A DNA stretch of 64,000 nt, from NCBI GenBank assembly GCA_030426665.1, contig JAUHYD010000008.1, positions 62,001-126,000 on the forward strand, given 5' to 3'. Each line of letters opens with the position of its first letter. The stretch's first letter is position 1. The notes beneath the pieces are model-generated. The model was not told the origin of the DNA and did no database searches. It saw nothing but the letters and a program-made list of their open reading frames with translations. Of this stretch, positions 20,559 to 45,294 are shown piece after piece. A program made the translations under genes and the position numbers. This DNA comes from Bacteroidia bacterium (lineage in GTDB: Bacteria; Bacteroidota; Bacteroidia; Chitinophagales; Chitinophagaceae).

Positions 20559-20578
20559 ATAGGGGTGTATAGGAACCA

Positions 20579-22900
20579 ATGACGAGACATAGAAGGATAC
20601 TGAAGCGACTACTTGTTGTTGCGTTATCGGCTGTTGTATTGTTTTTCATTATCGACTTAGCGGCTCCGGTGGCAGTGACAGTACCATACTCCAAAACAAT
20701 TTATGCAAGCGACAGCACCGTACTGCACAGCTACTTAGCTGCAGACGAGCAATGGCGAATGGAAGCCCATCTGAATGAAATTTCACCGGAACTAAAAAAA
20801 GCAATAGTCTTTAAAGAGGATAAATACTTCTATCAACACTTCGGCATTAATCCGGCCGCCCTACTCAGAGCGGCAACCAACAACATCTTCAGTCGCAGGA
20901 GAACTTCGGGGGCGTCGACAATTACTATGCAGGTAGCCCGCCTGCTCGACCCAAAACCCAGAACCTACCTAAACAAGCTAAAAGAGATGTTCCGGGCCAT
21001 GCAACTGGAGCTACACTACAGCAAAGAAGAAATACTTAGGCTGTACCTCAATCTCGTACCTTATGGTTCCAATATCCAAGGAGTAAAGGCTGCTTCAATT
21101 CTGTACTTCAACAAAATGCCGGATCACCTTTCCCTGGCAGAAATAACAGCATTGAGTATCATCCCCAATCGCCCAAACTCGCTGGAAATAGGGACAAAGA
21201 ACTCTTACATTGTTCAACAGAGAAACAAATGGCTGCAAAGGTTTCGTGAGGCGGGGATATTTCCGGAAAATACCATCAGGGATGCACTGAGTGAACCGCT
21301 GACCGCATACCGGCATCCGGCACCGTCCTCGGCACCGCAACTGTCGTTACGTATGTGCGGGGCTGCGCCATTCCTAACTGACATATACACAACCATTGTT
21401 CCCAAACTACAAGCCAAGGCTGAGTCGATTACTTACAACTATGTCAACGAGCTGAAGCTGCATAACATAAATAATGCCGCTGTAATAATTATAGACAACG
21501 AGACTCATGAGGTGGTCACCTATATAGGTTCTTCAGACTTTAATGACAGTCTGCATTGCGGACAAGTAGATGGCGTACAGGCGCTGCGTTCTCCCGGAAG
21601 CACGCTGAAGCCACTGCTGTATGGCAAATGTATTGACAAAGGCCTGATAACACCTAAAACCAAAATAGCTGATGTACCGGTTAATATCAAAGGCTATTCA
21701 CCGGAAAATTATGACAGGGAGTTTCGTGGAAATGTGACGGTCGAGTTTGCGCTCAGTCACTCGCTGAATATCCCTGCCGTGAAACTATTGGAAAACTTCG
21801 GGTTGGATGCATTCATTAATTCTTTGTCACAGGCCGGTTTCTCCTCCATTGCCAATAGCCGGAAAGATTTAGGGCTCTCTGTCATCCTTGGCGGATGTGT
21901 CGTCCGGCTCGATGAGTTGACTTCGATGTATGCCTCGATAGCAAACAACGGAAATTACCGAAGACCAATATACTATACCAACACCGTGCAGAAAGAAACA
22001 TCGGAAAAAGATACCATTCCCGGAATATTGTCGCCTCAGTCGTGCTATATGATTACCAATATACTCACTGGACTTACAAGGCCGGATCTTCCGAATTCTT
22101 TGCAATCGGCAAAAAACATACCCCGCATAGCCTGGAAAACCGGCACCTCGTACGGCAGAAAAGACGCATGGAGCATTGGCTACAACAAAAAATACACCAT
22201 CGGCGTGTGGGTAGGCAACTTCTCGGCAGAGGGAGCACCTGAACTGAGTGGCACCACTACTGCAACCCCATTGTTGTTCCGGCTGTTTAATGCCATTGAC
22301 TACAGCGCAAGTGACAAATGGCCGGCAGAACCGAAGAACATGTCATTCCGGCTTGTTTGTGCCGAAACAGGTAATGTACCTGACGATTTTTGCGAACAGC
22401 AGATTATGGACTTTTACCTGCCCGGAATCTCAGACAACAGAACCTGTACGCACCTCAGGCACGTTTGGGTATCGGCGGATGAACGGTGTAGCTACTGTAG
22501 CCTATGTCTACCGCCGGCAGGGTATATAAATAAGTTGCTACCTAATGTGCCATCCGAGCTGGCGTCTTATTATGATGCGGTACACATACCTTATACCTCC
22601 CTTCCGCCCCATAACCCTGAATGCACGCACAACTTTTCCGGAAATCCACCAGTCATCACCTCACTCACTAATGGGTTAACTTATATTATCGAAAACCCGG
22701 AAATGCAACAGTTACAGCTTTCCTGTGTTGCCGCAGGAGACGTATCAAAGGTATTCTGGTATATCAACGACCGCATTTATGCAACCGCGGAAGTAGGGGA
22801 AAGGCTATTCTTTAAGGCTACAACGTCGACCATAAAAATATCTTGCGTGGATGACAAAGGAAGGAAGACCGACATAAATATTAAAGCCGAATACCTGTAG
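20579..22900 (+). CDS. pbpC: Penicillin-binding protein 1C
   Basis: A 773-residue bifunctional class A PBP, inner-membrane anchored by one helix (about 11-27). The GT51 glycosyltransferase domain has the catalytic EDKYFYQHFG (E80-G89). The transpeptidase domain has SxxK as S341-TL-K344, SxN as S395-L-N397, and KTGTS at 520-524. A C-terminal BiPBP_C-type beta domain (about 690-773) ends the protein, as in PBP1C. It forms the second gene of the A2M-pbpC pair, with only 20 bp between them, and is probably co-transcribed. Several Cys residues in the linker (residues about 600-650, spacing HLRHVW...CSYCSLC) look like a small metal or disulfide knot seen in PBP1C. Confidence 0.96.
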   Translation: MTRHRRILKRLLVVALSAVVLFFIIDLAAPVAVTVPYSKTIYASDSTVLHSYLAADEQWRMEAHLNEISPELKKAIVFKEDKYFYQHFGINPAALLRAATNNIFSRRRTSGASTITMQVARLLDPKPRTYLNKLKEMFRAMQLELHYSKEEILRLYLNLVPYGSNIQGVKAASILYFNKMPDHLSLAEITALSIIPNRPNSLEIGTKNSYIVQQRNKWLQRFREAGIFPENTIRDALSEPLTAYRHPAPSSAPQLSLRMCGAAPFLTDIYTTIVPKLQAKAESITYNYVNELKLHNINNAAVIIIDNETHEVVTYIGSSDFNDSLHCGQVDGVQALRSPGSTLKPLLYGKCIDKGLITPKTKIADVPVNIKGYSPENYDREFRGNVTVEFALSHSLNIPAVKLLENFGLDAFINSLSQAGFSSIANSRKDLGLSVILGGCVVRLDELTSMYASIANNGNYRRPIYYTNTVQKETSEKDTIPGILSPQSCYMITNILTGLTRPDLPNSLQSAKNIPRIAWKTGTSYGRKDAWSIGYNKKYTIGVWVGNFSAEGAPELSGTTTATPLLFRLFNAIDYSASDKWPAEPKNMSFRLVCAETGNVPDDFCEQQIMDFYLPGISDNRTCTHLRHVWVSADERCSYCSLCLPPAGYINKLLPNVPSELASYYDAVHIPYTSLPPHNPECTHNFSGNPPVITSLTNGLTYIIENPEMQQLQLSCVAAGDVSKVFWYINDRIYATAEVGERLFFKATTSTIKISCVDDKGRKTDINIKAEYL

Positions 22901-26904: not shown

Positions 26905-26977
26905 GCCACTTTAGCTCAGCTGGTAGAGCAACTGATTTGTAATCAGTAGGTCGCTGGTTCGATTCCGGCAAGTGGCT
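26905..26977 (+). tRNA. tRNA-Thr (TGT anticodon)
   Basis: 73 nt cloverleaf. Acceptor GCCACTT/AAGTGGC, D-arm AGCTCAGCTGGTAGAGCA, anticodon stem ACTGA/TCAGT around loop TTTGTAA (anticodon TGT), T-arm with GGTTCGATTCC. Discriminator T, no encoded CCA. First of four tRNAs in the cluster. Confidence 0.97.
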
Positions 26978-26984
26978 CATTAAC

Positions 26985-27067
<83 letters not shown>

Positions 27068-27071
27068 CTCT

Positions 27072-27104
27072 CATGTTGACGGTCTTCTATGGCTCGTCAG
27101 CATG
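27072..27104 (+). other. Hairpin between tRNA-Tyr and tRNA-Gly
   Basis: Ten-bp inverted repeat CATGTTGACG / CGTCAGCATG (one G-T pair) with a 12- to 13-nt loop. It fills the spacer between two tRNAs. There is no T-run after it, so it is more likely an RNA-processing structure than a terminator. Confidence 0.5.
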
Positions 27105-27112
27105 ATTCAGAA

Positions 27113-27185
27113 GCGGGAGTAGCTCAGTTGGTAGAGCGACAGCCTTCCAAGCTGTAGGTCGCGGGTTCGAGCCTCGTCTCCCGCT
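27113..27185 (+). tRNA. tRNA-Gly (TCC anticodon)
   Basis: 73 nt. Acceptor GCGGGAG/CTCCCGC, anticodon stem ACAGC/GCTGT around loop CTTCCAA (anticodon TCC), T-arm GGGTTCGAGCC, discriminator T, no encoded CCA. Confidence 0.97.
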
Positions 27186-27264
27186 CAATTTGTGTTCTTT
27201 TACCAGTTTGTTTTTAAGCCAAGGCGTGAAGTGCCGCGATACTTCCGGGTTTATGACAACAATA

Positions 27265-27336
<72 letters not shown>

Positions 27337-27582
27337 CATTTTCCTCTTTCTTTTTTCTAATTTTTCCGGTTATTTCGTCAGCAAGAGCATAGCAGTTTAA
27401 CTACTTTTCTGCGTCAATACTTTTTATGGTGTTGGTTATGCCACTTCACTCTTGATTTATCCTTCAATATCTCTTTCCCTTATACATTAACGCGAACAGA
27501 TGAATCAGACATGCTGTTTCCCACATTTTGTAAATACGAATCGCAGTTTCTAAATCAATTGCTGCATTTGATTGTTACCTAG

Positions 27583-29386: not shown

Positions 29387-29968
29387 ATGTATCCCCCTGC
29401 ATTTGAGTCCGACGAAACTTTTGACGCGCTCCTTCCGATGAGCATACGGACATTATCTGAGCAGCACTGGACGCCGATAAAGGTTGCAAAGGTTGCTGCA
29501 ATATTCCTTGCCGCTGATACGAATGCGAACATTGTAGACATAGGTGCGGGAATCGGGAAATTCTGCCTCACCGGAAACGCATTTACCAAGGCTAATTTTA
29601 CCGGAATTGAACAACGAAAAAACTTTGTGGAAGTGTCAAAGAAATTAGCCACCCGACTTGGGCTGAACCGAACGAAAATGATTCATGGCAACTTCGTAGA
29701 TATGGACATCACAGGTTACACCGGCATTTACTTTTTTAATTCATTCCACGAAAACATTGTCACGTCGGACTCTCTGGACGAGCGTGTAGAACGCTCGCCG
29801 GAATTGTACAAACAATACACAGACCACCTGACGGCACAGCTACTGGCAATGCCGATAGGCACCCGACTTGCTACTTACTGGCTGGCTGTAACGGAAATTC
29901 CGGGGTCTTACAAACTGGTGGGCGCCCAATTTGACAACTTGCTGAAAATGTGGATTAAGAAGTCTTAA
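29387..29968 (+). CDS. SAM-dependent methyltransferase-like protein
   Basis: A 193-residue protein with a recognisable class I methyltransferase core: motif I NIVDIGAGIGKFCLTG (48-63) and the acidic strand-2 end in FTGIEQRKNF. The residue run IYFFNSFHENI occupies the motif IV place. An N-terminal helix HWTPIKVAKVAAIFLAAD precedes motif I, as in DOT1-like and small tRNA/protein methyltransferases. The substrate is unknown. The gene is a single unit between the tuf terminator and the giant surface-protein gene, with no obvious functional link to either. Confidence 0.65.
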   Translation: MYPPAFESDETFDALLPMSIRTLSEQHWTPIKVAKVAAIFLAADTNANIVDIGAGIGKFCLTGNAFTKANFTGIEQRKNFVEVSKKLATRLGLNRTKMIHGNFVDMDITGYTGIYFFNSFHENIVTSDSLDERVERSPELYKQYTDHLTAQLLAMPIGTRLATYWLAVTEIPGSYKLVGAQFDNLLKMWIKKS

Positions 29969-30073: not shown

Positions 30074-33000
30074 ATGAAATTATGCCCAAAACTAAAATTA
30101 TATTCCGGCGCTCAGCGGGGTAAAAATGGTTACGACCTTAGGATACGTATCATCACGATGCTGGTGCTTATCGGCACGTGCGCTAAATCTCAACCGGTTA
30201 TTACCGCATTAAGTAGTTATGCCGGACATCCGGGTACAACAATTAATATTACAGGAACCGGGTTTAATACTACTGCTGATAGTAACGAAGTCTGGTTTGG
30301 TGGGGGAAAGGCAAACATAACTTCCGGTAGTGATACATCTTTAACGGTAACTATTCCGGTCGGAGCGACTTTCTTTCCTGTGTCTGTAAATAATAAAGCG
30401 AATTTACTTACGGGCTATTCAGCGAAATCGTTTTTACCGACGTTCGACAATAGCCAATACGTTGCCGACACAATAAATCTGGTTGAATCGCATAAATTGC
30501 CAGGAGGAAACAGGTTTAGCCCGGATAACGTCGAAATTATTGACATTGATGGTGACGGGAAACCCGAGTTAGTTGCACGAAAAAGAAAATCTGTATATAT
30601 ATTTAGAAATATCGGTTCTGCCGGGCAAATTAATGATGCCACATTTGCACCGAGTCATGAGTTCTTTTTTCACGATCAAGCTAGTGAAAACAGTGCCCTC
30701 ACGGATTTAAAAATACAAGACATAAATGGCGACAACAAGCCGGATCTGGTTGCCTGTTTTTCCAAAACAAAATACTATAGTTTAGGCATTGGGCTTGTTT
30801 CGGTACTTCTAAACACATCTGTTACAGGAACAATAGACAATTCGTCGTTTGCACCCTATATGCATTATTATGTAAGCCGCTTTCCCATGCGACTAGCGAT
30901 TGCCGATTTTGATGGTGACGGACGACCAGATATTGCAACTATGGGAACAGTTTACTACTTAGGGGTCAGCATTTTAAGAAACACGATAGTTAATGGCATG
31001 TTGACGGCCGGCTCTTTCGCTACACGAATAGACAAGAAGTTTCCCACTTCAGCACTTATCGAAGGAACAGTTCCAATAAGCGATATGGCAACCGGGGATA
31101 TAGATGGGGATGGTAAACAAGACATAGTTGTTAAAAGAGGTCTTGCCTTGTCACTAACGGTACTACGTAACGTATGCACACCCGGCGTTATTGATTTCGA
31201 ATCATTTTCTGATGGAGTTGACATTGCAAGCCCATATGAAACGGCGACACAAATGGTCCTTGCTGATGTGGACGGCGATGGTAAGCTCGATATGGTTTCA
31301 AGCGACAATAGTAAAAGTAAGATTGATATCTGGAAAAATATATCAACACCCGGGACAATTGAACCAACTTCCTTTTTCAAGGCTGGCACATATCCTGTAA
31401 ATGGCAAACCAGACTATTTAAGAGTTGGCGATCTTAATGGCGACGGAAAACCTGACGTTGCTGTAACATGCTCGTCAGATACAGAAGGAGCGTCTATCTG
31501 TATTTTACGGAACGGTTCTACGACGGGCTCTATTGACTCGACTTCATTTGCCCCATACATTCAGTACTATAATGAGTCAATCAGCAATAAAATAGCTATT
31601 GGAGATATGGATGGTGACGGGATACCTGATTTAGCATTAAGTAACGGCAACCGCACGTTCGGCGCCCCTAACTATATTACCCTGTATCGGAACAAACCAA
31701 TATTTCAGACTCCGATAGTTGGCCCTTCAAGTATGTGTGATGGAGGCGATACCACAACCTTCAGCATTGCGCTAACAGGCGGCACCTGGAGCAGCAGCGA
31801 CACAGGGGTTGCAACAATAGACACTCTAACCGGATTGACAACAAGTGCAAGTGCCGGAGTCACAATCATAACATACACCTACGACACGACTGTTACAACT
31901 ACTGCCCTTATTGTGCACCCGTCTGCATCGACAATTGCGGGGGGCTCCGAGTATTGTATCGGAGTTGGCGGCGTGCTTTCAAACCTCGCACCAAACGGAA
32001 TCTGGAGCAGTGCCGATACATCTGTAGCTGCTGTAGACTCCTTTGGAAATATTGCTGCAATGAGCGCCGGAACAACGCAAATAAGCTATGCCACCTCATG
32101 CGGCACGGCTGCCGTCAAAAACATTACGGTAAATCCTTTTCCGGACGCAATCGCCGGAAGTACCAGTATAGATGTTGGCGATACCAGTACTTTGTCAAAC
32201 TCGACAGGCGGCGGTATCTGGAGCAGCGTCGACACATCTATTGTTGTCATCAACCCGACAACAGGTTTCGCGTTTGGAAAGCGTGCAAGCAGTTGTGCCA
32301 TAACTTACGAGGTGAATGGGTGTAGCGTTTCGGCTACTGTTACAGTTAATGCAAGCTCGCTACCTGCACCAACAATAACAGCTGTAAGTACTGTCGCGGA
32401 AGAACCGGGCGAGAGTATTAGCCTGACCGGGACTAATTTCAATACGGCTACATCAGGCAATGTTGTCTATTTTGGTGCTACGCGTGGCACAGTCAACTCG
32501 GCTAGCAGTACGATGCTCAACGTAACAGTACCGGCATGGTCTACCGACGAACATATATCAGTTAACAATACTGAGTCGGCACTCACGGGATATACCAAAC
32601 CGCGATTCAGTCCATCATTCGACTATACCAACTATTTACCAGATATTAATTTTGTTAGTGAATATAAGATGTATAGTTTTCGTAGAGGCGGAGACGATGC
32701 AACAATTGCCGACATAGACGGGGATGGGAAATTTGACATTATAGATGTAGATGTGAGCAGCGAGAACATTGTTGTATCCCGAAACAACATTATGGATGGA
32801 GCGCTTACTGCCTCATCACTAGAGCAAGGTGTCTATTTTCAGTCTACCGCACCGAGTTCAGTCAATCATAGTTCTTATACGGCACATGTGCTTGCCACCG
32901 GAGATATAGATGGGGATGGACATCCGGATATTGTATCTGTAAATCCTGCACCAAAAACTTTTTCAGTATTCAGAAATACTGCCGTACCCGGAATTATAGA

Positions 33001-36000
33001 CTCTTCATCATTGGCCCCTGCTGTCGAGTTTGATGTAAGTGCAAGCGAGCCAAGCAGTATAGCTTTGTGCGACTTTGACCTTGACGGGAAACTAGACGTA
33101 GTGATTGTAAACAACGCATCAAACACTGTTTCCGTATTCCATAATACAAGTACATCCGGGTTCATAGATAGCAACTCGTTTGGTGCAAGGGTAGATTTCG
33201 CCACAGGAACAAGGCCTGTTGCCGTTGCGACCGGAGATATCGACGGAGATGGCAAGCCTGATATAATAGTAACAAACCATGTTGGTTATGCTTCAGTGGG
33301 CACCATTTCGATATTGCGAAACACAACAACCCCTGACACTATCAACAGCAGTTCGTTTGCGGCAAAAGTAGATTTTTCGGCTGGCCTGCAACCCTTTTTT
33401 CCTGCGATCGGGGATATTGACGGAGATGGGAAACCGGATATTTGTGTATTCAATAACGAGGCCTCCTATTTTTCATTATTTCGGAATACTGCTACCCCGG
33501 GTTCTATAACTTCAGGTTCCCTTTCATCGAGAGTTGCTATAACAGTTTCGTCAGCAAACACAACGCAGGGGTATGGACAATTGGTGGATGTTACCGGAGA
33601 CGGGAAACCCGAAGTTGTATTTACAATGTTGAATTCCGGAGAATATGCGAAGGTATATGTATGTAAAAACACAGCAACACCCGGAACAATAAACTCATCT
33701 TCTTTTGCAGCAAAAGTTCAGGTAGCAAATAGCCTCTACCGCTTCTTTGTCGGAGACATAGACGGAGACCATAAACCAGATATAATAGACCCAGGTTACG
33801 CAACCTATCTTAGGGTAATAAAAAACAACCCACTAGCCATTAGCAAACCCACATCAATTTGTGTAGGACAGACACAAACACTCCACCACGTTCAAACGGG
33901 AGGTTACTGGAGCAGCAGCGACCCTTCTATTGCTACCATTGGCACGGCAAGCGGTGTGGTAACAGGTGTTTCCGCTGGTTCGGCAACAATTATCTACGCA
34001 ATACCAGGTGGAGGATACGACTCTACAACAGTAACAGTGTTTGCCATACCTACCCCTATAACCGGACCTGCAACATCATGCACCGGGGATTTAGTACTGT
34101 TTACGAATGATGCCAAGGGTGGCGAATGGGACATTTTGAACTTTACCGGCCTCGGGCTCATTGACTCTTCCGGTTATGTCATAAGCCAACGGTCCGGCGT
34201 CGCCCGGATATCTTATACCATCGGTTGTGCCACACCTGTCATTAAAAATGTGACTTTCAATCCAGTTCCGGACTGGATTGAAGGCCCTGACAGCCTCTAT
34301 CCGGGAACCTACACAACCCTGACTAACACCGTTGCCGGTGGGACCTGGACCAGCAGCGACACCTCTATTGCAACGATAAACTCCTCCGGGGTGATTTCAG
34401 CAATGACCGAAGGCAATACTATTATAACTTATAGTCTTTCAACCGGCTGCAAAGTAATGAAGCGCATAAAGGTATACCCTGACATATTTCCACCGATTGT
34501 AACTTCGGTGACACCGGCAATTGCCATACCGGGAGACACTGTCACGATTTCAGGTTCTAATTTTGCTACGACGACTGATAGCAATGTAGCCTACTTCGGG
34601 CCGGTGAGGGCAACGCTTTTATCTGCGAGTTCTACATCGTTATCGGCAATTGTCCCTGTAAGCAGCACATTTAACCATGTTTCGGTCACCAGACCCGGTA
34701 CCGGACGTACAGGCCACTACATTAGTCATTTCCTGCCAACATTCGATAGTAATATTTACAGAACCGAAACTGTAAACCTGGAGCCAAAAGTGAATTTTCC
34801 GGCTGTTGACAAAACGACTTCGGTTGCAACCGGAGATCTTGACGGAGACGGGAAACCGGATGTAGTAGCGTTAAGTTGGTTCAACCGAGTGATTTCGATT
34901 TACAGAAACGTAAGTGATAGCGGAGTTATTGACTCCACATCATTGACTGAAAAGTACGAAATTGGTGTTGAGGCCGAATACGCAAGATATCTTGTATTAG
35001 CTGACTTCGACGGAGATGGGAAACAGGATATTCTTGTTTCTGCACGCAGTGGTTATCATACGAGCTATGAAGGAGGTGACTTCATATTCATCTATCGAAA
35101 TATCTCTGTTCCGGGTGTACTTGACTCCAACTCCTTCGCGGCACCGGTACGGCTACATTCTGTTTACAGCGTTAGCTCTTTTGCTGTTGCTGACTTAGAT
35201 ATGGATGGCAAGCCGGATATTATTGCGCCGAGACCATCTCCCTATTTTAGTTTTTGGCGCAACACTTCCACTCCCGGAGTAATAAAAGCCAATTTGCTAG
35301 ATGTACTGGATGATGTATCTATCACCAGTGCAGGTCCCAGTACAAAGGAAGTAGTAATTGGAGATTTAGATGGCGACGGATTGAGCGACTTTGTTGCCTC
35401 ATTAGGCAATAAAATTGCTCTTTATAGAAATACATCACAAAGAGGTCTTTTTTCATTTGTTGGTCCTATTTACATTGATTTTGGATTGAATGACTATGGT
35501 GATATTGCAATGGGAGATCTGGATGGTGATGGCAAGCAGGATTTGGTCACCCTGAGCACATCCACTACAAACAGGGTATTTTCTATACTTAGAAATACAG
35601 CGACACCCGGAGAAATATCAGGTAGCTCCTTTGCCGCAAAAGTTGACTTTCCCTCTACGTACTGGAATCTCTACGGAGTTGACATTGCTGACATGAACGG
35701 AGACGCCAAGCCGGACATTGTGATTACCTCGGAATACTCAGAAAGAATTGGAGTGTTCACTAATACTTCGACTCCCGGAACGATTGATACAAGCTCATTT
35801 TCTATGGCGGCATCTATCAATCTCATGGAGAAGGTGACGGAAATAACACTCACAGACATTGATGGTGATAAAATTACCGACATTGTGGCGGCAGGTAAAG
35901 AGACAGAATCTGTCATTATACTAAGAAACCATCCGCTATTTGCGTTTACCGACATCTGGGGCCCATCAGAGATTTGCCTGGGAACCACAGCATCATATAC

Positions 36001-39000
36001 CCATGATACAGCAGGTGGAATATGGAGCTGTAGTAACGATACAATAGCCACTATCTCCTCATCAGGAATAGTAACAACGCATTCCTCAGGCACGGCATTT
36101 ATTACTTATTCGACTCCTAATGATACTGCCACGAAACTAATTTCAGTAGTGACCTTTCCTGATCTTGATACGATTACCGGACCTTCAAAAGTGTATGTAG
36201 ACTCTTCTATCACACTCGCAAATACTGAGTCTGGGGGAGTGTGGCAATCATCTGACACAACAATTTTGGTTGTTGATGAATCGGGACACGCTACCGGTAT
36301 CAGTTATGGAACGGCAACAATAAAATACGTCTATGAAAATGCTTGTGGCGTAGACTCTACAGAGAAAGTGATTGATGTAGATACATTAATCGACTTTGAG
36401 GTTACGGGTTCACTTTTACTTTGTTCAGAAGCAAGTACCACGCTTGTCGCATCACCGTCCGGGGGCGCATGGAGTTGCACCGATACCACTATCGCAACTA
36501 TAGATGCTGCTACCGGGGTCGTTGTCGCCCAATCATCAGGGACTGCCACGATTTACTACTCCATCGGAGATCAAATGACATCGGTCAGCATAACGGTATC
36601 AGAACCTGTAACAATTACAGGAGCCGGGACACTGTGTACCGGACAATCAGAAAACTACGTGGGGCTTCCGACAGGTGGTGCATGGACAAACAGCGACACC
36701 ACTTATGCAACGATAAGCCCGACAGGTCTGGCAACCGGCATGGATGTTGGCACAGCAATAATTACTTACACTTTGCCAAACGGTTGTTCTGCCACAACCA
36801 CGATTACCGTAAACCAGCTTCCGGATGCAATTGTAGGGGTACAAGAAGTGTGTATTGACGCGACAACTGCGCTCTCTAATATGGCTACCGGCGGACTGTG
36901 GAGCAGTGCTGATACTGCGACGGTAACGATAGACGCAACGGGCGTAGCTACAGGAATCGCAACCGGAACAACAACTATTACCTATGCGCTGCCGGACGGA
37001 TGTTATACAACTACGACAATAACAGTAAATGCACTACCCGAAAGCATCACGGGAACGCTGGAAGTTTGCGAAGAAAGCGAAACTACTTTAATCTCCACAA
37101 CAGGTGGAGGAACATGGACAAGCGACAACACGACCATCGCCACAATCAGTAGTACAGGGTTGGCTTCCGGTGTCAATGCAGGTACTGCCAATATATCCTA
37201 CTCGCTGCCAACAGGCTGCTCTGTAACTACAGTTTTAACTGTAAAACAGCTGCCTGAAGTGATCACAGGTACGCTGCAGATTTGTGAGGAATCTACAACC
37301 ACCCTCACAAATACCATAACGGGTGGGACATGGAGCAGTGGCTCGACTGCAATCGCATCGATAATTGGAACGGGCATTGCAACGGGTGTAGCAGCCGGAA
37401 CAACAATCATAACGTATACGCTACCGGAAGGGTGTTATACTACTACGACTCTCACGGTAAATGTACTACCCGAAACCATAACGGGGGTATTTGAAGTATG
37501 TGAAGGAAGTACAATCACGTTAGCCAACGTAACAAGTGGCGGAACATGGGCAAGCGACAATATAACCGTCGCCACCATCAGTAGTGCAGGATTGGTTTCC
37601 GGCACTAATGCAGGTACCACCAACATCACCTATATGCTGCCGGCAGGATGTTATACCTCTGTCACCGTTACAGTAAATCAGCAACCGGAAGCAATCTCCG
37701 GAACGCTACAAGTTTGTGAAGGGGCGACAACCACTCTCTCAAATTCCATAACAGGAGGTACATGGAGCAGCAGCTCGATTGCAAATGCTACAATAACCGG
37801 AACAGGGATCGCAACAGGATCGGCTACGGGTACAACAACAATAACGTATGCACTACCCGACGGGTGTTACACAACTGCTACCCTAACAGTAAATGAAATG
37901 CCCGAAGACATAACGGGGACATTTGATGTATGTGAAGGAAGTACAATCTCGTTAACCAACACTACAAGTGGAGGCGCATGGACAAGCGAGAACACAACTG
38001 TCGCCACAATAAACGGTATTGGTTTAGCTTCCGGCATCAATGCAGGCACAGCCAATATAACTTATATGCTGCCTGCAGGATGTTACACCAGTGCCACCGT
38101 TACCGTAAATCAGCAGCCGGAAGCAATAAACGGAGTGCTACACGTTTGTGAAGGAGCTACAACCTCCCTCTCAAATTCCATAACAGGTGGCACATGGAGC
38201 AGTAGCTCGACTGTAAATGCGACAATAACAGGAACAGGGGTAGCAACAGGTGTAACAGCCGGCACGACAACGATAACGTATGCACTACCCGACGGGTGTC
38301 GCACAACAGCGACACTAACAGTAAATGAACAACCCGAAGACATTACCGGAACCCTTGAGGTTTGTGAGGGTTCATCGACAACACTATCCAGTGCCACGCC
38401 CGGCGGGAGCTGGAGCAGTGCAGATGTTTCTATTGCGACCGTCAGCACTGCAGGAGAGGTAACCGGTTTCGCTGCAAACACCGCAAGTATCATCTATACT
38501 TTGCCGGATGGCTGTAGTACGTCTACATCCGTTACGGTAAATCCATTACCGGAACCGATAACCGGTGACTCGACTATATGCAAAGGGGCAACAGAAACAC
38601 TTCATAATAGCACTCCCGGCGGTGTATGGAGCAGTAGCATTCACCTTATAGCCGACGTTGACACTTCGGGCACTGTATTAGGTATTAATGCCGGAATATC
38701 AAGAATCACTTACGCTCTTACTACCGGCTGTTTTGTAAGCAAACTGGTAACGGTAAATCCGGCCCTTCCGACCATAGTGGGACCGGAGACTGTATGTGTA
38801 GGAACCAACACACCCTTTACCAATGCTACCGTAGGTGGCACATGGAGTAGTGAAACATCGATAATTGCATCTATCGACGAATCCGGGATACTAAATGCCA
38901 TAACCCCCGGCATTACCACTATCAGCTATACTTTGCCCACAGGATGTTATGCAACTAAGGTAATAACTGTAAATCCGGCTATTTCGACGATAATGGGACC

Positions 39001-42000
39001 TGAGACGGTATGTGAGGGAACGGCAGCTACATTCACCAACGCTACTGTAGGTGGCACATGGACTAGTGAATCATCAACAGTTGCAGCCATCGACGAATTC
39101 GGAATACTAAATGGCATAGCAGCCGGCACCAACACCATCAGCTACACTTTGCCAACGGGGTGCTATGCAACAAAGCTAGTTACTATTAATGCGCTCCCTC
39201 CCGCTATCGATGGGTCACTTGAAGTATGTGAAGAAGCTACCGTGAGCCTGCATAATGCTGTAGCGGGTGGCAGTTGGAGCAGTTCAGACATTTCAGTTGC
39301 GGCTATTGCTCCTGATGGATTGGTTGACGGAATAATTAGCGGCACCGCAACCATTACCTATACATTGCCCACCGGATGTAGTACGACCGGCATCGTTACC
39401 ATTCATCCGCTACCAAGCCCGCTGACAGGCGTAATGGCAATATGCGAAGAAGAAGAAACAATAGTCAACGCTACCCCATCTGGTGGTACATGGACAACGA
39501 GCAACCCAACAATCACACAAGTTGACACAACAGGAAGTGTGACAGGGTTGAGTGCCGGGACTTCTAATATTTCCTATACCCTGCCAACCGGGTGTTTCGT
39601 TACGTCGACAACTACTGTAAATGAAAATCCCGCAGTAATATCGGGCAACCGACAAGTATGTGAAGGATTAACTACTACTTTGCTTGACACTATAACCGGA
39701 GGGTCCTGGCATAGTGATAACACCGCCGTTGCAGACATAGACTCCGATGGAATACTAACGGGAAACAATGCCGGCACCGCAATCATATATTACGTATTGC
39801 CAACAGGGTGTACAACAAATGCAATAGTTACTGTAAACTTTTTACCCTCAACTATAACAGGCCCTGAAGACGTATGCGAAGGCCTGACAGTATCGCTATC
39901 GAACCTTAGTACCGGTGGACTGTGGAGCATTGCTGATACCACAACTGCCAGTATAGATACGGAAGGAATAGTAACCGGTGTCAACGCCGGGAGTACCATC
40001 GTGACCTATACGCTACCAACCGGATGTATAACAACAACCACCATCATAACCCGACAAACACCAGCCACAATAACCGGTAATACTGCAATATGCAGTGGCT
40101 TTAACGATACGTTGTACAATGCTATAACGGGTGGTATTTGGACTAGCCTCAATGCGAGTATTGCATCCATCGGCTCAACGGGCATTGTAACAGGCATTGC
40201 ACCCGGAACGACGACGATTGAATATGCATCCTCCTTTGGCTGTATCACATCAGTACAAATAACCGTTAACCCTGTTCCCGATGCTATTTCCGGTGACCTG
40301 GAAATTTGCAAAAGCAGCACGTCCTTACTGTCTACTGCCAGTACAGGTGGCAGTTGGAGTAGCAGCAACACTACTGTTGCTAATGTTGATGCGGTAGGGC
40401 TTGCATCGGCAACAGCCCAGGGAACTGCATCTATTTCGTACACTCTTCCAACAGGCTGCCTAACGTCAAGCACGGTTACTGTCAATGCGCTACCGGCAGC
40501 GATTTCAGGAATACCGGAAGCATGTAAAAATGCATCTACACCCCTTTCTAATGCCACAGTAGGAGGTACATGGACCACTGGCGACCTATCGATTGCAACC
40601 ATTTCTTCCGGAGGAATGGTAACCGGCGCAAGTGCAGGAACAACTTATGTCACCTACACTTTACCAACAAGTTGCCTTACGACAAGTATTGTCACCATAC
40701 ATCCGCTGCCACAGATTGACACGTTGTTGGGTGGTGGGGGCTACTGTGCCGGCGGCACAGGTGTTGCACTATCGCTTGGCAACTCGGTTTCCGGCAATAC
40801 TTATACGTTGTATCATGCACCCTCCACACCACTCTCTTTCGCAGGCTCCGGACTTCCATTAGACCTTGGCATGCACACCGAAGCAGGTGACTATTACGTA
40901 TTGGCACAAAACCCACCGGGCTGCGTCAGCACAATGCATGACACCGCCACAATTACCATCATTCCAATTGCTAATCCACATGTGAACATAAGCACAACGC
41001 CAATGGGCAGCATTTGCGACGGGACATCGGTGGACTTTACCGCCAACCATATTGATGCAGGATTAGAACCGGGGATTGAATGGATGGTCAACGGAACCTC
41101 GGTAGATACCGGTAGCATCTTCACCTATATTCCTTCCGACAACGACGTAGTCACAGTAGTTCTAACGAGTAGTGCAACATGCGTAACAGCTCCAACTACA
41201 ACGGATTCTGTAAATATGTCCGTTATTACGAATGAGCTGCCAACTGTATCGACAGTTGTATCAGATGATTCGGTTTGTCAGTATACCCCCGTTACCTTTT
41301 GGGGAAGTGCGCTTCATGGCGGCACGTCACCCATATACACCTGGTTTGTCAACAACAACCCTGTTGCAACAGGTAGTGACTACACCTACATTCCTGCTGA
41401 CGGCGACAATGTTTTTGCTGAATTGCATAGCAGCTACCCATGCCTTGTTGCCAACGATATAAAAAGTGAAACCACGTACCTGAAAGTAGACTCTGTGAAA
41501 ATACCGAATGTAGATATAGACTATTCTCCGGTCCATATTTCCCATCCCGGTCAGCCGATTAGCTTTACTGCCCACATTAAATATGGTGGTAGTTCACTGG
41601 AATATCAATGGCTGAAAAATGGCGTGACCATAAGCGGGGCTACATCAATGTATTACACAGACAGCAATCTCCGCGACAATGATTCGATTACCTGTTTTGT
41701 AGAAAATACAGACTTATGCCGCTTCACCAGCTTCAATTCAATCATAGTACATATTGCTTCGGACTTTGTGCAGCTATCACCGAAAACCAGCAGCATAAAA
41801 TTGTTGCCCAACCCGAATTCAGGCAATTTTTCTGTTGTGGGTTCTTTTGCTTCAACGTCAGACAGTTTTGCACAAATCAGCATACTAAATATGCTCGGTC
41901 AGGAAGTACTACAAACGAACAGCCTGATTGCAGAAGGGCAAATTAATAAGAGAATTGTTCTGGATAATGGGCTGTCGAGCGGTATGTACACACTAGTCGT

Positions 42001-42049
42001 TCAACTGTCGACAGAACGGTATGTTCTTCATTTTGTACTTAGAAAGTAA
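30074..42049 (+). CDS. Giant T9SS-secreted surface protein: IPT, FG-GAP propellers, Big_2 repeats
   Basis: 3991 residues, exported and surface-anchored through the type IX system. An N-terminal signal region (hydrophobic IITMLVLIGTCA, 27-38) is followed by three modules. Each has an IPT/TIG domain (starting near residues 41, 765 and 1475) and then exactly seven D-x-D-G-D-G-type FG-GAP/VCBS calcium motifs, read here as one seven-bladed propeller. Big_2-like Ig repeats follow (G-G-x-W-S-S core): 3, 3, and 22 copies. About 330 residues of PKD/Ig-like sequence come next. A T9SS C-terminal sorting domain (about 3905-3991, with LLPNPNSGNF and LSSGMYTLVV) ends the protein. Each repeat of the long array carries two Cys. 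Adhesion or polysaccharide binding is likely but inferred; no lectin or enzyme domain was seen. Single gene, own leader. Confidence 0.93.
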   Translation: MKLCPKLKLYSGAQRGKNGYDLRIRIITMLVLIGTCAKSQPVITALSSYAGHPGTTINITGTGFNTTADSNEVWFGGGKANITSGSDTSLTVTIPVGATFFPVSVNNKANLLTGYSAKSFLPTFDNSQYVADTINLVESHKLPGGNRFSPDNVEIIDIDGDGKPELVARKRKSVYIFRNIGSAGQINDATFAPSHEFFFHDQASENSALTDLKIQDINGDNKPDLVACFSKTKYYSLGIGLVSVLLNTSVTGTIDNSSFAPYMHYYVSRFPMRLAIADFDGDGRPDIATMGTVYYLGVSILRNTIVNGMLTAGSFATRIDKKFPTSALIEGTVPISDMATGDIDGDGKQDIVVKRGLALSLTVLRNVCTPGVIDFESFSDGVDIASPYETATQMVLADVDGDGKLDMVSSDNSKSKIDIWKNISTPGTIEPTSFFKAGTYPVNGKPDYLRVGDLNGDGKPDVAVTCSSDTEGASICILRNGSTTGSIDSTSFAPYIQYYNESISNKIAIGDMDGDGIPDLALSNGNRTFGAPNYITLYRNKPIFQTPIVGPSSMCDGGDTTTFSIALTGGTWSSSDTGVATIDTLTGLTTSASAGVTIITYTYDTTVTTTALIVHPSASTIAGGSEYCIGVGGVLSNLAPNGIWSSADTSVAAVDSFGNIAAMSAGTTQISYATSCGTAAVKNITVNPFPDAIAGSTSIDVGDTSTLSNSTGGGIWSSVDTSIVVINPTTGFAFGKRASSCAITYEVNGCSVSATVTVNASSLPAPTITAVSTVAEEPGESISLTGTNFNTATSGNVVYFGATRGTVNSASSTMLNVTVPAWSTDEHISVNNTESALTGYTKPRFSPSFDYTNYLPDINFVSEYKMYSFRRGGDDATIADIDGDGKFDIIDVDVSSENIVVSRNNIMDGALTASSLEQGVYFQSTAPSSVNHSSYTAHVLATGDIDGDGHPDIVSVNPAPKTFSVFRNTAVPGIIDSSSLAPAVEFDVSASEPSSIALCDFDLDGKLDVVIVNNASNTVSVFHNTSTSGFIDSNSFGARVDFATGTRPVAVATGDIDGDGKPDIIVTNHVGYASVGTISILRNTTTPDTINSSSFAAKVDFSAGLQPFFPAIGDIDGDGKPDICVFNNEASYFSLFRNTATPGSITSGSLSSRVAITVSSANTTQGYGQLVDVTGDGKPEVVFTMLNSGEYAKVYVCKNTATPGTINSSSFAAKVQVANSLYRFFVGDIDGDHKPDIIDPGYATYLRVIKNNPLAISKPTSICVGQTQTLHHVQTGGYWSSSDPSIATIGTASGVVTGVSAGSATIIYAIPGGGYDSTTVTVFAIPTPITGPATSCTGDLVLFTNDAKGGEWDILNFTGLGLIDSSGYVISQRSGVARISYTIGCATPVIKNVTFNPVPDWIEGPDSLYPGTYTTLTNTVAGGTWTSSDTSIATINSSGVISAMTEGNTIITYSLSTGCKVMKRIKVYPDIFPPIVTSVTPAIAIPGDTVTISGSNFATTTDSNVAYFGPVRATLLSASSTSLSAIVPVSSTFNHVSVTRPGTGRTGHYISHFLPTFDSNIYRTETVNLEPKVNFPAVDKTTSVATGDLDGDGKPDVVALSWFNRVISIYRNVSDSGVIDSTSLTEKYEIGVEAEYARYLVLADFDGDGKQDILVSARSGYHTSYEGGDFIFIYRNISVPGVLDSNSFAAPVRLHSVYSVSSFAVADLDMDGKPDIIAPRPSPYFSFWRNTSTPGVIKANLLDVLDDVSITSAGPSTKEVVIGDLDGDGLSDFVASLGNKIALYRNTSQRGLFSFVGPIYIDFGLNDYGDIAMGDLDGDGKQDLVTLSTSTTNRVFSILRNTATPGEISGSSFAAKVDFPSTYWNLYGVDIADMNGDAKPDIVITSEYSERIGVFTNTSTPGTIDTSSFSMAASINLMEKVTEITLTDIDGDKITDIVAAGKETESVIILRNHPLFAFTDIWGPSEICLGTTASYTHDTAGGIWSCSNDTIATISSSGIVTTHSSGTAFITYSTPNDTATKLISVVTFPDLDTITGPSKVYVDSSITLANTESGGVWQSSDTTILVVDESGHATGISYGTATIKYVYENACGVDSTEKVIDVDTLIDFEVTGSLLLCSEASTTLVASPSGGAWSCTDTTIATIDAATGVVVAQSSGTATIYYSIGDQMTSVSITVSEPVTITGAGTLCTGQSENYVGLPTGGAWTNSDTTYATISPTGLATGMDVGTAIITYTLPNGCSATTTITVNQLPDAIVGVQEVCIDATTALSNMATGGLWSSADTATVTIDATGVATGIATGTTTITYALPDGCYTTTTITVNALPESITGTLEVCEESETTLISTTGGGTWTSDNTTIATISSTGLASGVNAGTANISYSLPTGCSVTTVLTVKQLPEVITGTLQICEESTTTLTNTITGGTWSSGSTAIASIIGTGIATGVAAGTTIITYTLPEGCYTTTTLTVNVLPETITGVFEVCEGSTITLANVTSGGTWASDNITVATISSAGLVSGTNAGTTNITYMLPAGCYTSVTVTVNQQPEAISGTLQVCEGATTTLSNSITGGTWSSSSIANATITGTGIATGSATGTTTITYALPDGCYTTATLTVNEMPEDITGTFDVCEGSTISLTNTTSGGAWTSENTTVATINGIGLASGINAGTANITYMLPAGCYTSATVTVNQQPEAINGVLHVCEGATTSLSNSITGGTWSSSSTVNATITGTGVATGVTAGTTTITYALPDGCRTTATLTVNEQPEDITGTLEVCEGSSTTLSSATPGGSWSSADVSIATVSTAGEVTGFAANTASIIYTLPDGCSTSTSVTVNPLPEPITGDSTICKGATETLHNSTPGGVWSSSIHLIADVDTSGTVLGINAGISRITYALTTGCFVSKLVTVNPALPTIVGPETVCVGTNTPFTNATVGGTWSSETSIIASIDESGILNAITPGITTISYTLPTGCYATKVITVNPAISTIMGPETVCEGTAATFTNATVGGTWTSESSTVAAIDEFGILNGIAAGTNTISYTLPTGCYATKLVTINALPPAIDGSLEVCEEATVSLHNAVAGGSWSSSDISVAAIAPDGLVDGIISGTATITYTLPTGCSTTGIVTIHPLPSPLTGVMAICEEEETIVNATPSGGTWTTSNPTITQVDTTGSVTGLSAGTSNISYTLPTGCFVTSTTTVNENPAVISGNRQVCEGLTTTLLDTITGGSWHSDNTAVADIDSDGILTGNNAGTAIIYYVLPTGCTTNAIVTVNFLPSTITGPEDVCEGLTVSLSNLSTGGLWSIADTTTASIDTEGIVTGVNAGSTIVTYTLPTGCITTTTIITRQTPATITGNTAICSGFNDTLYNAITGGIWTSLNASIASIGSTGIVTGIAPGTTTIEYASSFGCITSVQITVNPVPDAISGDLEICKSSTSLLSTASTGGSWSSSNTTVANVDAVGLASATAQGTASISYTLPTGCLTSSTVTVNALPAAISGIPEACKNASTPLSNATVGGTWTTGDLSIATISSGGMVTGASAGTTYVTYTLPTSCLTTSIVTIHPLPQIDTLLGGGGYCAGGTGVALSLGNSVSGNTYTLYHAPSTPLSFAGSGLPLDLGMHTEAGDYYVLAQNPPGCVSTMHDTATITIIPIANPHVNISTTPMGSICDGTSVDFTANHIDAGLEPGIEWMVNGTSVDTGSIFTYIPSDNDVVTVVLTSSATCVTAPTTTDSVNMSVITNELPTVSTVVSDDSVCQYTPVTFWGSALHGGTSPIYTWFVNNNPVATGSDYTYIPADGDNVFAELHSSYPCLVANDIKSETTYLKVDSVKIPNVDIDYSPVHISHPGQPISFTAHIKYGGSSLEYQWLKNGVTISGATSMYYTDSNLRDNDSITCFVENTDLCRFTSFNSIIVHIASDFVQLSPKTSSIKLLPNPNSGNFSVVGSFASTSDSFAQISILNMLGQEVLQTNSLIAEGQINKRIVLDNGLSSGMYTLVVQLSTERYVLHFVLRK
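30190..35945 (+). repeat. Three tandem IPT-plus-seven-FG-GAP modules inside the giant gene
   Basis: Modules start near 30,190, 32,370 and 34,490, a period of about 2.15 kb. Each begins with an IPT/TIG domain (GTGFN, GTNFN, GSNFA cores). In each, seven calcium motifs of the type D-I-D-G-D-G-K-P-D follow. Modules 1 and 2 are closed by three Big_2 repeats; module 3 opens into the long array. Seven blades is the count of an integrin-like propeller. Confidence 0.85.
36683..40786 (+). repeat. Array of 19 Big_2 repeats with exact 216-bp period
   Basis: The core Trp codon of successive repeats lies at 36,683, 36,899, 37,115, 37,331 and so on to 40,571: eighteen intervals, every one exactly 216 bp (72 residues), despite strong sequence divergence. 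The three Trp codons before it are at 36,023, 36,242 and 36,470, with uneven spacing (219, 228, 213). Each unit carries two Cys, in the L-P-x-G-C turn and in the V-C-E-G turn. Confidence 0.92.
37040..38335 (+). repeat. 432-bp two-repeat superunit present three times
   Basis: Within the 216-bp array, repeats alternate between type A (W-T/A-S-x-N-x-T/I, SG or SGxNAGTxNI) and type B (W-S-S-x-S, ATITGTG). The A-B pair recurs three times from about 37,040 to 38,335, with much higher identity between every second repeat than between neighbours. Boundaries are approximate. Confidence 0.75.
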
Positions 42050-42150: not shown

Positions 42151-45100
42151 ATGAATGTAAAGGAAGATTTGTTTCTGGAACGATACAATAAGCTGAATGA
42201 CCGACAACGTGATGCGGTTGATACCATCTATGGCGCTGTAATGGTCATTGCGGGACCGGGCACGGGCAAAACAGAAGTGCTTGCAATGAGGATAGCTAAC
42301 CTGCTGCGCAGCGAGGCGCAGGTACAGCCACACGAAATTCTTTGTCTGACTTATACTGATGAAGCAGCCAACTCTATGCGGCGCAGATTGATACAGATTG
42401 CAGGTACTGCTGCGCACAAGGTTAATATTTATACGTTTCATGGCTTTTGTAATGCTATCATCCAAAATAACAGCGACTACTTCAGTAAACGCGAAATGCA
42501 ACCTGTCAGCGACCTGGAAAAAGCTGACCTGATGTACAATATGCTGGAAAGTCTTCCGCCCGGCCACCTATTCAGAAAGCTGAGCGGTGATATATATTCC
42601 GACTCGTCCCGGCTCAAGGATTTTTTCGAAACAATGAAAAAAGAATTCCTGACGCCGGAAGCTATTTCAACGGCTATAGATGAATACATAGCGTCTTTGC
42701 CCGAGCGGCCGGAATATATCTACCAGCGCAACGGGAAGGGATACAAAAAAGGAGACCTCAAGCAAGCGAAAATTGATGAGCAGGTAAAGAAGATGGAAAC
42801 AACGCGTGCCGCGGCTTTGCTTTTTGACGAGTACCAGAAAAGAATGAAGGCCATCCATCGCTACGACTTTCAGGATATGATTTTGTGGGTTATCGACGCG
42901 TTCAAAAAACATCCCGAATTATTACAAAGCTACCAGGAGCGTTATCAGTTTATACTTGCCGATGAATTTCAAGACACAAACGGCTCTCAAAACCAAATAC
43001 TCACCTATCTGACCTCCTATTGGGAGAACCCGAACATATTTGTGGTTGGTGATGACGACCAAAGCATTTTTGAATTTCAAGGCGCCAGAATACGTAACAT
43101 TACCGACTTCTATGAACTACATAAGAACGACATAAAGATTGTGGTGCTGCCACAAAACTATCGCTCGTCTCAGGCAGTGATTGACTGGGCCATGGCCACC
43201 ATCAAGAATAATAATCAGCGCCTAATTAACCACCTACAAAACCTGAACCTAAATAAAGACATAGTTGCTGCCAACGACAGATTTAAAGACGGGAAAGATA
43301 CCGTAGCCCCTGTAGTGCGGGTATATCCGAACATTCTGCAAGAGGAAGCAGACATAGTACTAAGAATTGAACAGTTGAAGAAAGAGGGAGTACCTCTTCA
43401 GGAAATAGGCGTCCTCTATACGCAACACAAACAAGCAAGCAACATTATTGAGCTCCTTGAGCGTAAGGAAATACCTTACAACGTGAAAAAGCAGGTCAAC
43501 GTGCTCACCCTCCCTATTGTTGAACAGATCCTGAACGTACTCCGATACCTGGAAGCAGAACGAAAAAAGCCATTTGAGGGAGAGACACACCTTTTCGAAT
43601 TAATGCATGCTTCTTATTTCGGAATTGAGCCGAATGATATTGCTCTTCTGGCGCTGTATATGCAAACCAAGCGTAAAGAAACGGGTCCTATACGCTGGCG
43701 ATTGGCATTGTCTAATCCCCTGATGATAGAAGCACTCAACCTAAAGTCGGCAAAGGCGCTTCACCGGCTCGGCAAAAACCTGGATGAATGGGAAAAACAC
43801 CTTTCATCCCTGCCATTGCCGCTACTTGTAGAAAAAATAATTCACGAAGGTGGAATCGTCGCCAAATTACTTCAGGAGACTGATCATGTATGGAATATGC
43901 AGGCACTCAACTCCTTCTTCGATTTTGTGAAAGAAAGTGCGTTTGGCAACGTAGGCATTAAAGTCTCAGAGTTCCTGCTAACCATTGACAGAATGAACAA
44001 GGAAAAGATATCCGTAAACCTTCAGCGGGTTGTTCAGAGCGACAATGGGGTGTACCTATTTACTGCGCATAGTGCCAAGGGAAATGAGTTTGAACATGTA
44101 TTTCTGATTGGTTGCACGAAAAATTTCTGGGAAAATAAACGGGGTTCGGGTGGTAGCATTATGCTTCCCGACACCATTACTGCTACGGAAATAGATACTG
44201 AAAACAGCTACAAAGAAGAAGTTGCACGAAGGCTATTTTATGTTGCGCTAACCCGCGCAAAAAAACATCTGCAGATTTCTTATGCTGTTAACGACAATAA
44301 CGGGAAAGGGCAGGAACCGTCAGTGTTTATCGACGAAATATCGCAACCGGAAGAACGGTTGTCCGGAGCGGTGTCGCCTGAGCAAATAGTAGACCATCTC
44401 TCCTGGGCCATGAAGCCCGTACCGGAAGTACGCATTAAGATTGCTAACGCAGAATGGATAACACGCAACCTGCAACAACTTACCATGAGTGTGACCCAGC
44501 TCACCAAGTATTTACGTTGTCCGTTGGCATTCTATTATGAAACCGTACTGCGGGTTCCGTTTCAGAAAAATGACGCGCTGGGCTTCGGTAGTGCCGTGCA
44601 CAATACGATAGAGCGCATGTACAAAGAAATGAAAGCAAACGACGACGTATTTCCGCCGATTGAAGAAGTTCTGGCTATTTTCAAAAAAGAGCTTTACCGG
44701 GAATCAGGCTGCTTTAACACTATTCAGTTTGAGCGTAGAATGGAGCAGGGAATTCAGGAACTTACAGACTACTACAACCACTATATTGAAACATTCCATA
44801 AAAATGTAGCGATTGAATTTAAGGTGCCCCGGTTCTACCTCGAAGGTGTTCCGGTTACGGGTAAAATAGATAAAATAGAAATGTTCAAAGACTCATGCAT
44901 AGTTGTTGACTACAAAACCGGCAATCCTGACAAATCAGCGAAAGCTAATCTTGCCCAGCCCAATGAGAAAGCACCGAACGGAGGTGACTATTGGCGACAG
45001 ATGGTATTTTACAAATTGCTGTTGGAAAACTCTGACGAGCGGCACTGGAAAGTTGAAAAAGGTTATTTCGACTATATTCAAAAAGATAAGAACGGCGATT

Positions 45101-45294
45101 TCAAACGACTATTTGTACCGATCTTTCCTGAAGATGAAACAACAGTGCGCAATCAGCTAAAGGAATCCTACAACCGAATTATGAATCATGACTTTGACAA
45201 AGGTTGTGGTGAGGAAAAGTGCCACTGGTGCAACTTTGCTAAAAGGTACGAACTGGTAGCATCGGGTGAAGAAACAGAAATTGATGATGAATGA
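42151..45294 (+). CDS. UvrD/Rep-type helicase fused to a Cys-cluster PD-(D/E)XK nuclease
   Basis: A 1047-residue SF1A DNA helicase. Walker A is GPGTGKT (35-41), the DEFQDTN Walker B begins at D271, and VVGDDDQSIFEFQGA has D301-D303. A late HSAKGNEFEHVF and VALTRAKKH are SF1 motifs V-VI. The C-terminal part is a RecB/AddB-like nuclease: LRCPLAFYYE (C790), H817, GKIDK (D907), VVDYKTG (D920, K922), then C1019, C1024 and C1027. These four cysteines match the iron-sulfur pattern of AddB, AdnA and Cas4-type nucleases. All catalytic residues are present. Such one-chain helicase-nucleases act in recombination or break processing; a defence role is possible but unsupported by neighbours. A solitary gene behind the giant protein. 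Confidence 0.85.
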   Translation: MNVKEDLFLERYNKLNDRQRDAVDTIYGAVMVIAGPGTGKTEVLAMRIANLLRSEAQVQPHEILCLTYTDEAANSMRRRLIQIAGTAAHKVNIYTFHGFCNAIIQNNSDYFSKREMQPVSDLEKADLMYNMLESLPPGHLFRKLSGDIYSDSSRLKDFFETMKKEFLTPEAISTAIDEYIASLPERPEYIYQRNGKGYKKGDLKQAKIDEQVKKMETTRAAALLFDEYQKRMKAIHRYDFQDMILWVIDAFKKHPELLQSYQERYQFILADEFQDTNGSQNQILTYLTSYWENPNIFVVGDDDQSIFEFQGARIRNITDFYELHKNDIKIVVLPQNYRSSQAVIDWAMATIKNNNQRLINHLQNLNLNKDIVAANDRFKDGKDTVAPVVRVYPNILQEEADIVLRIEQLKKEGVPLQEIGVLYTQHKQASNIIELLERKEIPYNVKKQVNVLTLPIVEQILNVLRYLEAERKKPFEGETHLFELMHASYFGIEPNDIALLALYMQTKRKETGPIRWRLALSNPLMIEALNLKSAKALHRLGKNLDEWEKHLSSLPLPLLVEKIIHEGGIVAKLLQETDHVWNMQALNSFFDFVKESAFGNVGIKVSEFLLTIDRMNKEKISVNLQRVVQSDNGVYLFTAHSAKGNEFEHVFLIGCTKNFWENKRGSGGSIMLPDTITATEIDTENSYKEEVARRLFYVALTRAKKHLQISYAVNDNNGKGQEPSVFIDEISQPEERLSGAVSPEQIVDHLSWAMKPVPEVRIKIANAEWITRNLQQLTMSVTQLTKYLRCPLAFYYETVLRVPFQKNDALGFGSAVHNTIERMYKEMKANDDVFPPIEEVLAIFKKELYRESGCFNTIQFERRMEQGIQELTDYYNHYIETFHKNVAIEFKVPRFYLEGVPVTGKIDKIEMFKDSCIVVDYKTGNPDKSAKANLAQPNEKAPNGGDYWRQMVFYKLLLENSDERHWKVEKGYFDYIQKDKNGDFKRLFVPIFPEDETTVRNQLKESYNRIMNHDFDKGCGEEKCHWCNFAKRYELVASGEETEIDDE

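Follow-up and report, generated by a model that had tools for sequence, protein, structure and literature searches.

Fibrillar adhesins (FA) and FA-like proteins combine an adhesive head, repeated stalk domains and an anchor; Big_2 and TIG are named in this literature as stalk-like domains, and Por_Secre_tail was reported in 124 FA-like proteins, mostly from Bacteroidetes (PMC8286594, PMC9210967). We analyzed a giant gene of this build in a 64,000-nucleotide stretch of DNA (the window) from a Bacteroidia bacterium (GCA_030426665.1, contig JAUHYD010000008.1, positions 62,001 to 126,000), the genome of which comprises 4.62 Mb in 43 contigs. The gene encodes a 3991-residue protein that ends in a sorting domain of the type IX secretion system (T9SS). 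It differs from the described fibrillar adhesins in that it has three FG-GAP propeller heads and a predicted inter-domain cysteine ladder; the term FG-GAP does not appear in the main text of either paper.

Other described systems resemble parts of this protein. Bacterial integrin-type propellers consist of seven FG-GAP repeats that contain one calcium motif each (PMC3192720), as do the heads in the present protein, whereas here three propellers share one chain, with TIG in front, Ig behind and a T9SS tail. GhpA of Aureispira (PDB 9flp and others) is also a giant T9SS-linked chain of Ig-like domains (PMC13319060, PMC11205867). A heptamer and a hook are described for GhpA, and the present protein carries propeller heads; no sequence match to GhpA was found among the matches listed. 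The giant adhesin of Mobiluncus mulieris (51 domains, 7651 residues) likewise has a very long Ig-like stalk with covalent cross-links, but these lie within domains that are joined by a flexible linker, while those predicted here lie between domains (PMC10619420). Periscope proteins share the rod-like stalk of tandem folded repeats (PMC9704523). Their repeats are highly identical, whereas in the present protein the best pair of repeats shows 82% DNA identity and the best partner of most repeats 37-76%.

Predicted cysteine pairing between neighboring Ig domains

The 28 Ig repeats of the protein form arrays of 3, 3 and 22. In the strands of the structure model, repeat position 10 (Cys10) marks the end of strand A and position 60 (Cys60) lies just before strand G. 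Cys60 is missing in repeats 1, 4, 7 and 9 and Cys10 in repeats 3, 6 and 8; that is, Cys60 is absent from the repeat that opens an array behind a propeller and Cys10 from the one that closes it before a TIG domain, and the sole internal break is common to neighbors 8 and 9, where the longest linker is also found. Because the absences fall at array ends and in repeats 8 and 9 together, we infer that Cys10 of one repeat pairs with Cys60 of the next. This rule yields 24 predicted pairs, from Cys555-Cys676 through Cys3412-Cys3534, with 0 violations, whereas pairing within repeats gives 7; zero violations were reached by 20 of 200,000 random cysteine placements. Four further pairs (3484-3617, 3558-3703, 3648-3790 and 3735-3882) were read by eye in the tail.

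The rule was also evaluated on junctions pooled from the open reading frames (ORFs) of the own genome and from the loci L012-L035 and L076-L155 of relatives. Among 842 junctions, both cysteines were present in 831, a single one in 6 and 1, and neither in 4 (p 5e-8). Within repeats, the corresponding counts were 924/48/33/4 of 1009 (p 0.12); for pairing in the reverse direction, they were 801/29/25/3 of 858 (p 0.08). By set, the inter-domain counts were 657/5/1/2 for the own genome minus this protein and 75/0/0/1 for the same-genus loci. In 12 later regions, which partly overlap the earlier ones, they were 171/0/0/2 of 173, versus 186/23/13/2 of 224 within repeats. The two rules are told apart by paired absences (4 inter-domain versus 0 within repeats that have neighbors on both sides) and by the array ends: the first repeat of a run lacked Cys60 in 20 of 76 runs versus 3 of 747 repeats inside runs, and the last repeat lacked Cys10 in 12 of 76 versus 5 of 747.

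Several observations weigh against this pairing. For repeats with neighbors on both sides, the within-repeat rule was broken in 8 of 747 cases and the inter-domain rule in 7 of 842, which is about equally rare. Of the 76 runs, 56 keep the end cysteine in their first repeat and 64 in their last, which would need an unrecognized Ig domain before or after the run. The loci of named genomes alone (75/1/0/0) and the Ig_7 arrays of other genera (71/1/0/0 of 72 junctions) have no power to discriminate, and the p values overstate the case because the rows are related. On the other side, the A-B and F-G turns of the Ig fold lie at opposite ends of the domain, so that inter-domain pairing is the one that the topology allows. 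Intra-domain disulfides were considered and are disfavored by the cysteine co-occurrence. Taken together, the cysteines suggest disulfides that bolt neighboring stalk domains together.

An extra cysteine without an obvious partner occurs at repeat position 28 of repeats 7 and 9 (residues 1986 and 2135; window 36029-36031 and 36476-36478), which are the repeats of the long array without Cys60. In a same-genus protein with a very long stalk (L225, described below), both cysteines are present in every counted repeat, including the first.

On balance, we lean slightly towards a general form of this idea, in which these T9SS giants have disulfide ladders for stalks, with the A-B turn of each domain tied to the F-G turn of the next, an arsenal of adhesins swaps heads on this standard stapled stalk, and the same rule possibly applies to Bacteroidota Ig stalks in general. 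If this is the case, a chain of tens of domains would be covalently cross-linked end to end into a rigid, force-bearing rod; the ladder would explain the stiffness of surface rods of ~100 nm or more through a mechanism distinct from the within-domain cross-links of Gram-positive adhesins. The cysteine rule makes a sharp prediction of the partner of each cysteine. A review of periscope proteins (PMC9704523) gives short linkers and intimate contacts between domains as means of straightness, and an inter-domain disulfide would be a third. Neither such a ladder nor this protein family was found among the listed titles and abstract openings of open-licence PMC papers, a scope that excludes preprints and most subscription journals.

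Domain plan and propeller heads

The gene is a single open frame. Domain searches and a motif script gave the plan that an earlier note on this DNA had read from the translation: three TIG domains with exactly seven D-x-D-G-D-G motifs behind each, Ig repeats in runs of 3, 3 and 22, and at the C-terminus a type A sorting domain (Table 1). That description holds as far as it goes; it missed the cysteine pattern and about four further Ig-like domains behind the repeats. In this tail, Pfam placed one Ig_7 above the cut-off and one weak Ig_3/PKD_3 match, and the remaining Ig-like domains were recognized by eye. The sorting domain scored 28.3 bits with TIGR04183 (cut-off 23), and a profile search for two T9SS components detected SprA_N (507 bits) and PorU (1206 bits) in the own genome. 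The long Ig stalk and the T9SS C-terminus of the earlier note were thus borne out, and the protein has the sorting domain, and its genome the T9SS genes, expected of type A cargo.

Table 1. Features of the giant gene and its immediate neighbors (positions in the window)
Feature	Position	Strand	Basis
Upstream neighbor, methyltransferase-domain gene	29387..29968	+	Pfam; adjoins helicase gene in four relatives
Whole gene, 3991 residues	30074..42049	+	Open frame; Pfam/NCBIfam domains
N-terminal region with hydrophobic stretch (residues 1-39), probable Sec signal peptide	30074..30190	+	By eye from sequence
TIG domain 1 (residues 41-109)	30194..30400	+	Pfam PF01833; strands 5-85 of model
Propeller 1, seven blades (about residues 134-545)	30473..31708	+	7 motifs; model
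Ig repeats 1-3 (residues 547-762)	31712..32359	+	Repeat HMM; model
Predicted cysteine ladder	31736..41719	+	24 predicted inter-domain pairs in repeats and 4 in tail by eye
TIG domain 2 (about residues 763-838)	32360..32587	+	Pfam (3 TIG stretches); alignment; approximate borders
Propeller 2, seven blades (about residues 857-1253)	32642..33832	+	7 motifs; alignment
Ig repeats 4-6 (residues 1254-1471)	33833..34486	+	Repeat HMM
TIG domain 3 (about residues 1472-1549)	34487..34720	+	Pfam (3 TIG stretches); alignment; approximate borders
Propeller 3, seven blades (about residues 1565-1958)	34766..35947	+	7 motifs; alignment
Ig stalk, repeats 7-28 (residues 1959-3546)	35948..40711	+	Repeat HMM; repeats 15-19 modelled, pLDDT 95.3
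Longer linker between repeats 8 and 9, sole within-array junction with neither cysteine; possible hinge	36383..36394	+	Repeat HMM, sequence
About four further Ig-like domains (residues 3547-3900)	40712..41773	+	Pfam and sequence by eye
T9SS type A sorting domain (residues 3912-3985)	41807..42028	+	PF18962 (Por_Secre_tail) and TIGR04183
Downstream neighbor, UvrD helicase with PD-(D/E)XK nuclease domain	42151..45294	+	Pfam

The three propellers contain 21 calcium motifs (7/7/7), and the full ligand set is kept in 20 of them. As the earlier note had proposed, the modules are seven-bladed and integrin-like, with FG-GAP-type calcium motifs in each of the seven repeats; the fold was seen in the structure model of module 1 and extended to modules 2 and 3 by alignment to it. 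One calcium per blade probably stabilizes each propeller. When blades were compared between modules, each of the three pairs scored highest at matching blade numbers (75.6, 61.6 and 70.3), modules 1 and 3 only by a small margin (next score 60.1); the units of copying therefore seem to have been entire propellers and not individual blades. A recent triplication of one module was not supported by a quick tree of 101 modules, in which modules 1 and 2 fell inside an unresolved group of 39 rows that is rich in members of the genus (SH-aLRT 99); module 3 grouped with modules of two same-genus genomes, G019 and G002 (86), possibly a false join through long branches.

A frameshift or an assembly that merged separate genes, named beforehand as a possible refutation, was rejected: the frame is open throughout, long exact repeats are absent, and similar plans occur in independent genomes. 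Exact internal repeats reach about 27 bases, with none of 30, and no 25-base exact match of the gene was found in 40 other stretches of the own genome, so that short reads could have resolved it. Pfam also reported TcdB_toxin_midN at 40.6 bits (cut-off 24.8), yet no single stretch passes. A toxin was rejected, and the match is read as a shared propeller motif because two other own-genome stretches (L036 and L037) give it beside FG-GAP.

Proposed function and repertoire of giants

With reasonable confidence, we regard the protein as a fibrillar adhesin that is exported by the T9SS, anchored at the cell surface and equipped with three binding heads. It has the repeated stalk domains of that class (28 Ig repeats, 22 of them in one run), a sorting domain above the cut-off of Por_Secre_tail/TIGR04183 together with PorU in the genome, from which anchoring is predicted, and three propellers as putative adhesive domains according to alignment and model. 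Passage across both membranes would rely on a Sec signal together with the type A sorting domain. Assuming a rise of about 4 nm per Ig domain, the 22 repeats and about four more Ig-like domains would make up a thin stalk with a length on the order of 100 nm. The TIG-propeller heads would be held distally, at the N-terminus, spaced by two three-Ig spacers. Each seven-bladed ring may bind a glycan or a protein carried by another cell, a polymer or a surface, and three heads would provide avidity. Disulfides between the A-B turn of domain n and the F-G turn of domain n+1 would lock the Ig domains into a stiff, pull-resistant rod, with breaks only at the propeller/TIG borders and at repeats 8/9. 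A propeller fold by itself tells no function, which weighs against assigning adhesion to the heads; the "ligand-binding filament" of the earlier note stays the best reading of the domain plan, the binding itself being putative.

The protein is one of many giants in its genome. Among the matches listed, a survey of 40 stretches of the own genome (L036-L075) revealed at least 48 other ORFs with the Ig repeat, of which at least 43 ORFs or fragments have at least five copies. Since some of these end at contig or region ends, the gene number is nearer 40. Blastp sorted the 38 heads into 24 groups, of which 19 have a single member, whereas some tails are near-identical: those of L041 (+4104) and L062 share 97.8% identity over 451 residues, with no match between the heads. 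Mostly unrelated heads on sometimes near-identical tails of ~450 residues suggest head exchange. A Pfam scan covered 20 of the 37 other heads. No Pfam family was detected in 10 of these at E 0.001; FG-GAP was found in two, one of which also lists TIG, DUF7948 with SBBP propeller repeats in two and SBBP alone in one. A legume-type lectin was indicated in one head, where Lectin_leg-like was above its cut-off and the best-scoring model below its own; CUB, Omp28, DUF2341 and DUF7402 appeared once each. Some 40 giants in one genome thus present an untapped set of candidate binding domains.

The lectin-like and CUB domains of these sister heads bring up a possible, if rather improbable, role in nutrient capture, in which the propellers hold polysaccharide near the cell for uptake instead of a cell or surface; VCBS-type propellers have been linked with carbohydrate recognition in a review (PMC9218822). 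The immediate neighbors scanned (methyltransferase, UvrD helicase, epimerase and EF-Tu genes, to which the search was confined) include no carbohydrate-uptake gene, and a stalk made of at least 20 Ig domains fits reaching out better than feeding. It seems quite unlikely that the chains work like the Aureispira grappling hook, assembling into a multimeric filament used to catch other cells, which are then eaten. A Foldseek search with the stalk model gave fragments of GhpA as 8 of its first 17 hits (9flp, E 5.0e-17, 24% identity); GhpA itself is a 5,898-residue chain that forms a heptamer, and the hooks are described as T9SS-secreted (PMC13319060, PMC11205867). Equally improbable is a matrix or surface-coat component, a scaffold built with the other giants and devoid of a specific ligand, since the diverse heads on near-identical tails fit target choice better than a uniform coat, for all that the many repeat ORFs and the S-layer proteins among the Ig-chain matches would suit it.

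Relatives in the genus and in Bacteroidota

Similar plans recur in other genomes. With residues 36-1975 as the query, matches were found in 34 of 34 other same-genus genomes and in 35 of 64 genomes outside the genus; such matches may reflect propellers or Ig repeats alone. Twelve regions were fetched from same-genus genomes, and their plans are written here with Tb7 for a TIG domain plus seven-blade propeller, I for Ig repeats and C for the sorting domain. L222 of G016 reads Tb7 Tb7 I Tb7 I20 C, L221 of G029 reads Tb7 I Tb7 I21 C, and L219 of G033 has five propellers with I3 C. L224 of G010 (G010:C25:160000-179900) contains at least nine TIG-seven-blade propellers in a row in a single frame that is truncated at the region end, and L225 of G004 (G004:C38:126000-145900) carries one propeller on 47 counted Ig repeats followed by the sorting domain (I47 C). 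The multi-propeller relatives thus share the TIG-seven-blade units and the 72-residue Ig repeats with our protein, as well as the sorting domain in L219, L221 and L222, and differ in propeller and repeat numbers; their best matches to the three modules are about 35-44% identical. Another multi-propeller region (L223; G013:C1:22000-40000) consists of separate ORFs, Tb7Tb7, b6Tb7C and I13C, which are either separate genes or one broken gene.

Eighty of the named loci scanned were also compared. Among those listed, tandem TIG-propellers occur at 2-5 per chain in Bacteroidota: 4 in Flavobacterium restrictum, 3 in Pedobacter cryophilus, 5 in P. glucosidilyticus UBA7667, and 5 in Mucilaginibacter hurinus, two of which have only 5 or 6 motifs found. 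A unique plan was therefore ruled out, and the novelty that the earlier note had thought possible did not hold; the kind is already known, and the three-headed form is one variant in a series that runs through the genus. The exact 3/3/22 repeat count was seen only in this protein among the plans compared. The genus pushes the integrin-type propeller far, from 1 to at least 9 heads per chain and from 3 to 47 counted repeats across the 12 regions. The genus is probably Flavipsychrobacter (Chitinophagaceae), because a module of the same-genus genome G014 is identical to one in a metagenome-assembled genome named Flavipsychrobacter stenotrophus.

Genomic site

Including the own genome, 34 of 35 genus genomes match the downstream helicase and 26 of 35 the upstream methyltransferase. 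The site was compared in 15 relatives. The two genes are separated by 82-110 bases in G007, G022, G034 and G014. In G010, the gap between them holds a 233-residue ORF on the opposite strand with a Por_Secre_tail match of 32.3 bits (L160, 1155-1856, -). Different genes lie upstream of the helicase in the remaining 10, and no frame longer than the helicase was found in the fetched stretches of those ten. In two of these ten, G016 and G013, Ig-repeat frames that are truncated at the start of the region were observed on the opposite, 3' side of the helicase (L162 1-1770 and L163 2-1666, +). We infer that the giant gene was gained in this lineage, loss elsewhere being the alternative.

Farther upstream, four tRNA genes (Thr, Tyr, Gly and Thr; window 26905-27337) precede the EF-Tu gene. 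Window 15168-22900 contains the gene for a bacterial alpha-2-macroglobulin of 1796 residues and, behind it, one for a penicillin-binding protein in which transglycosylase, transpeptidase and BiPBP_C domains were recognized.
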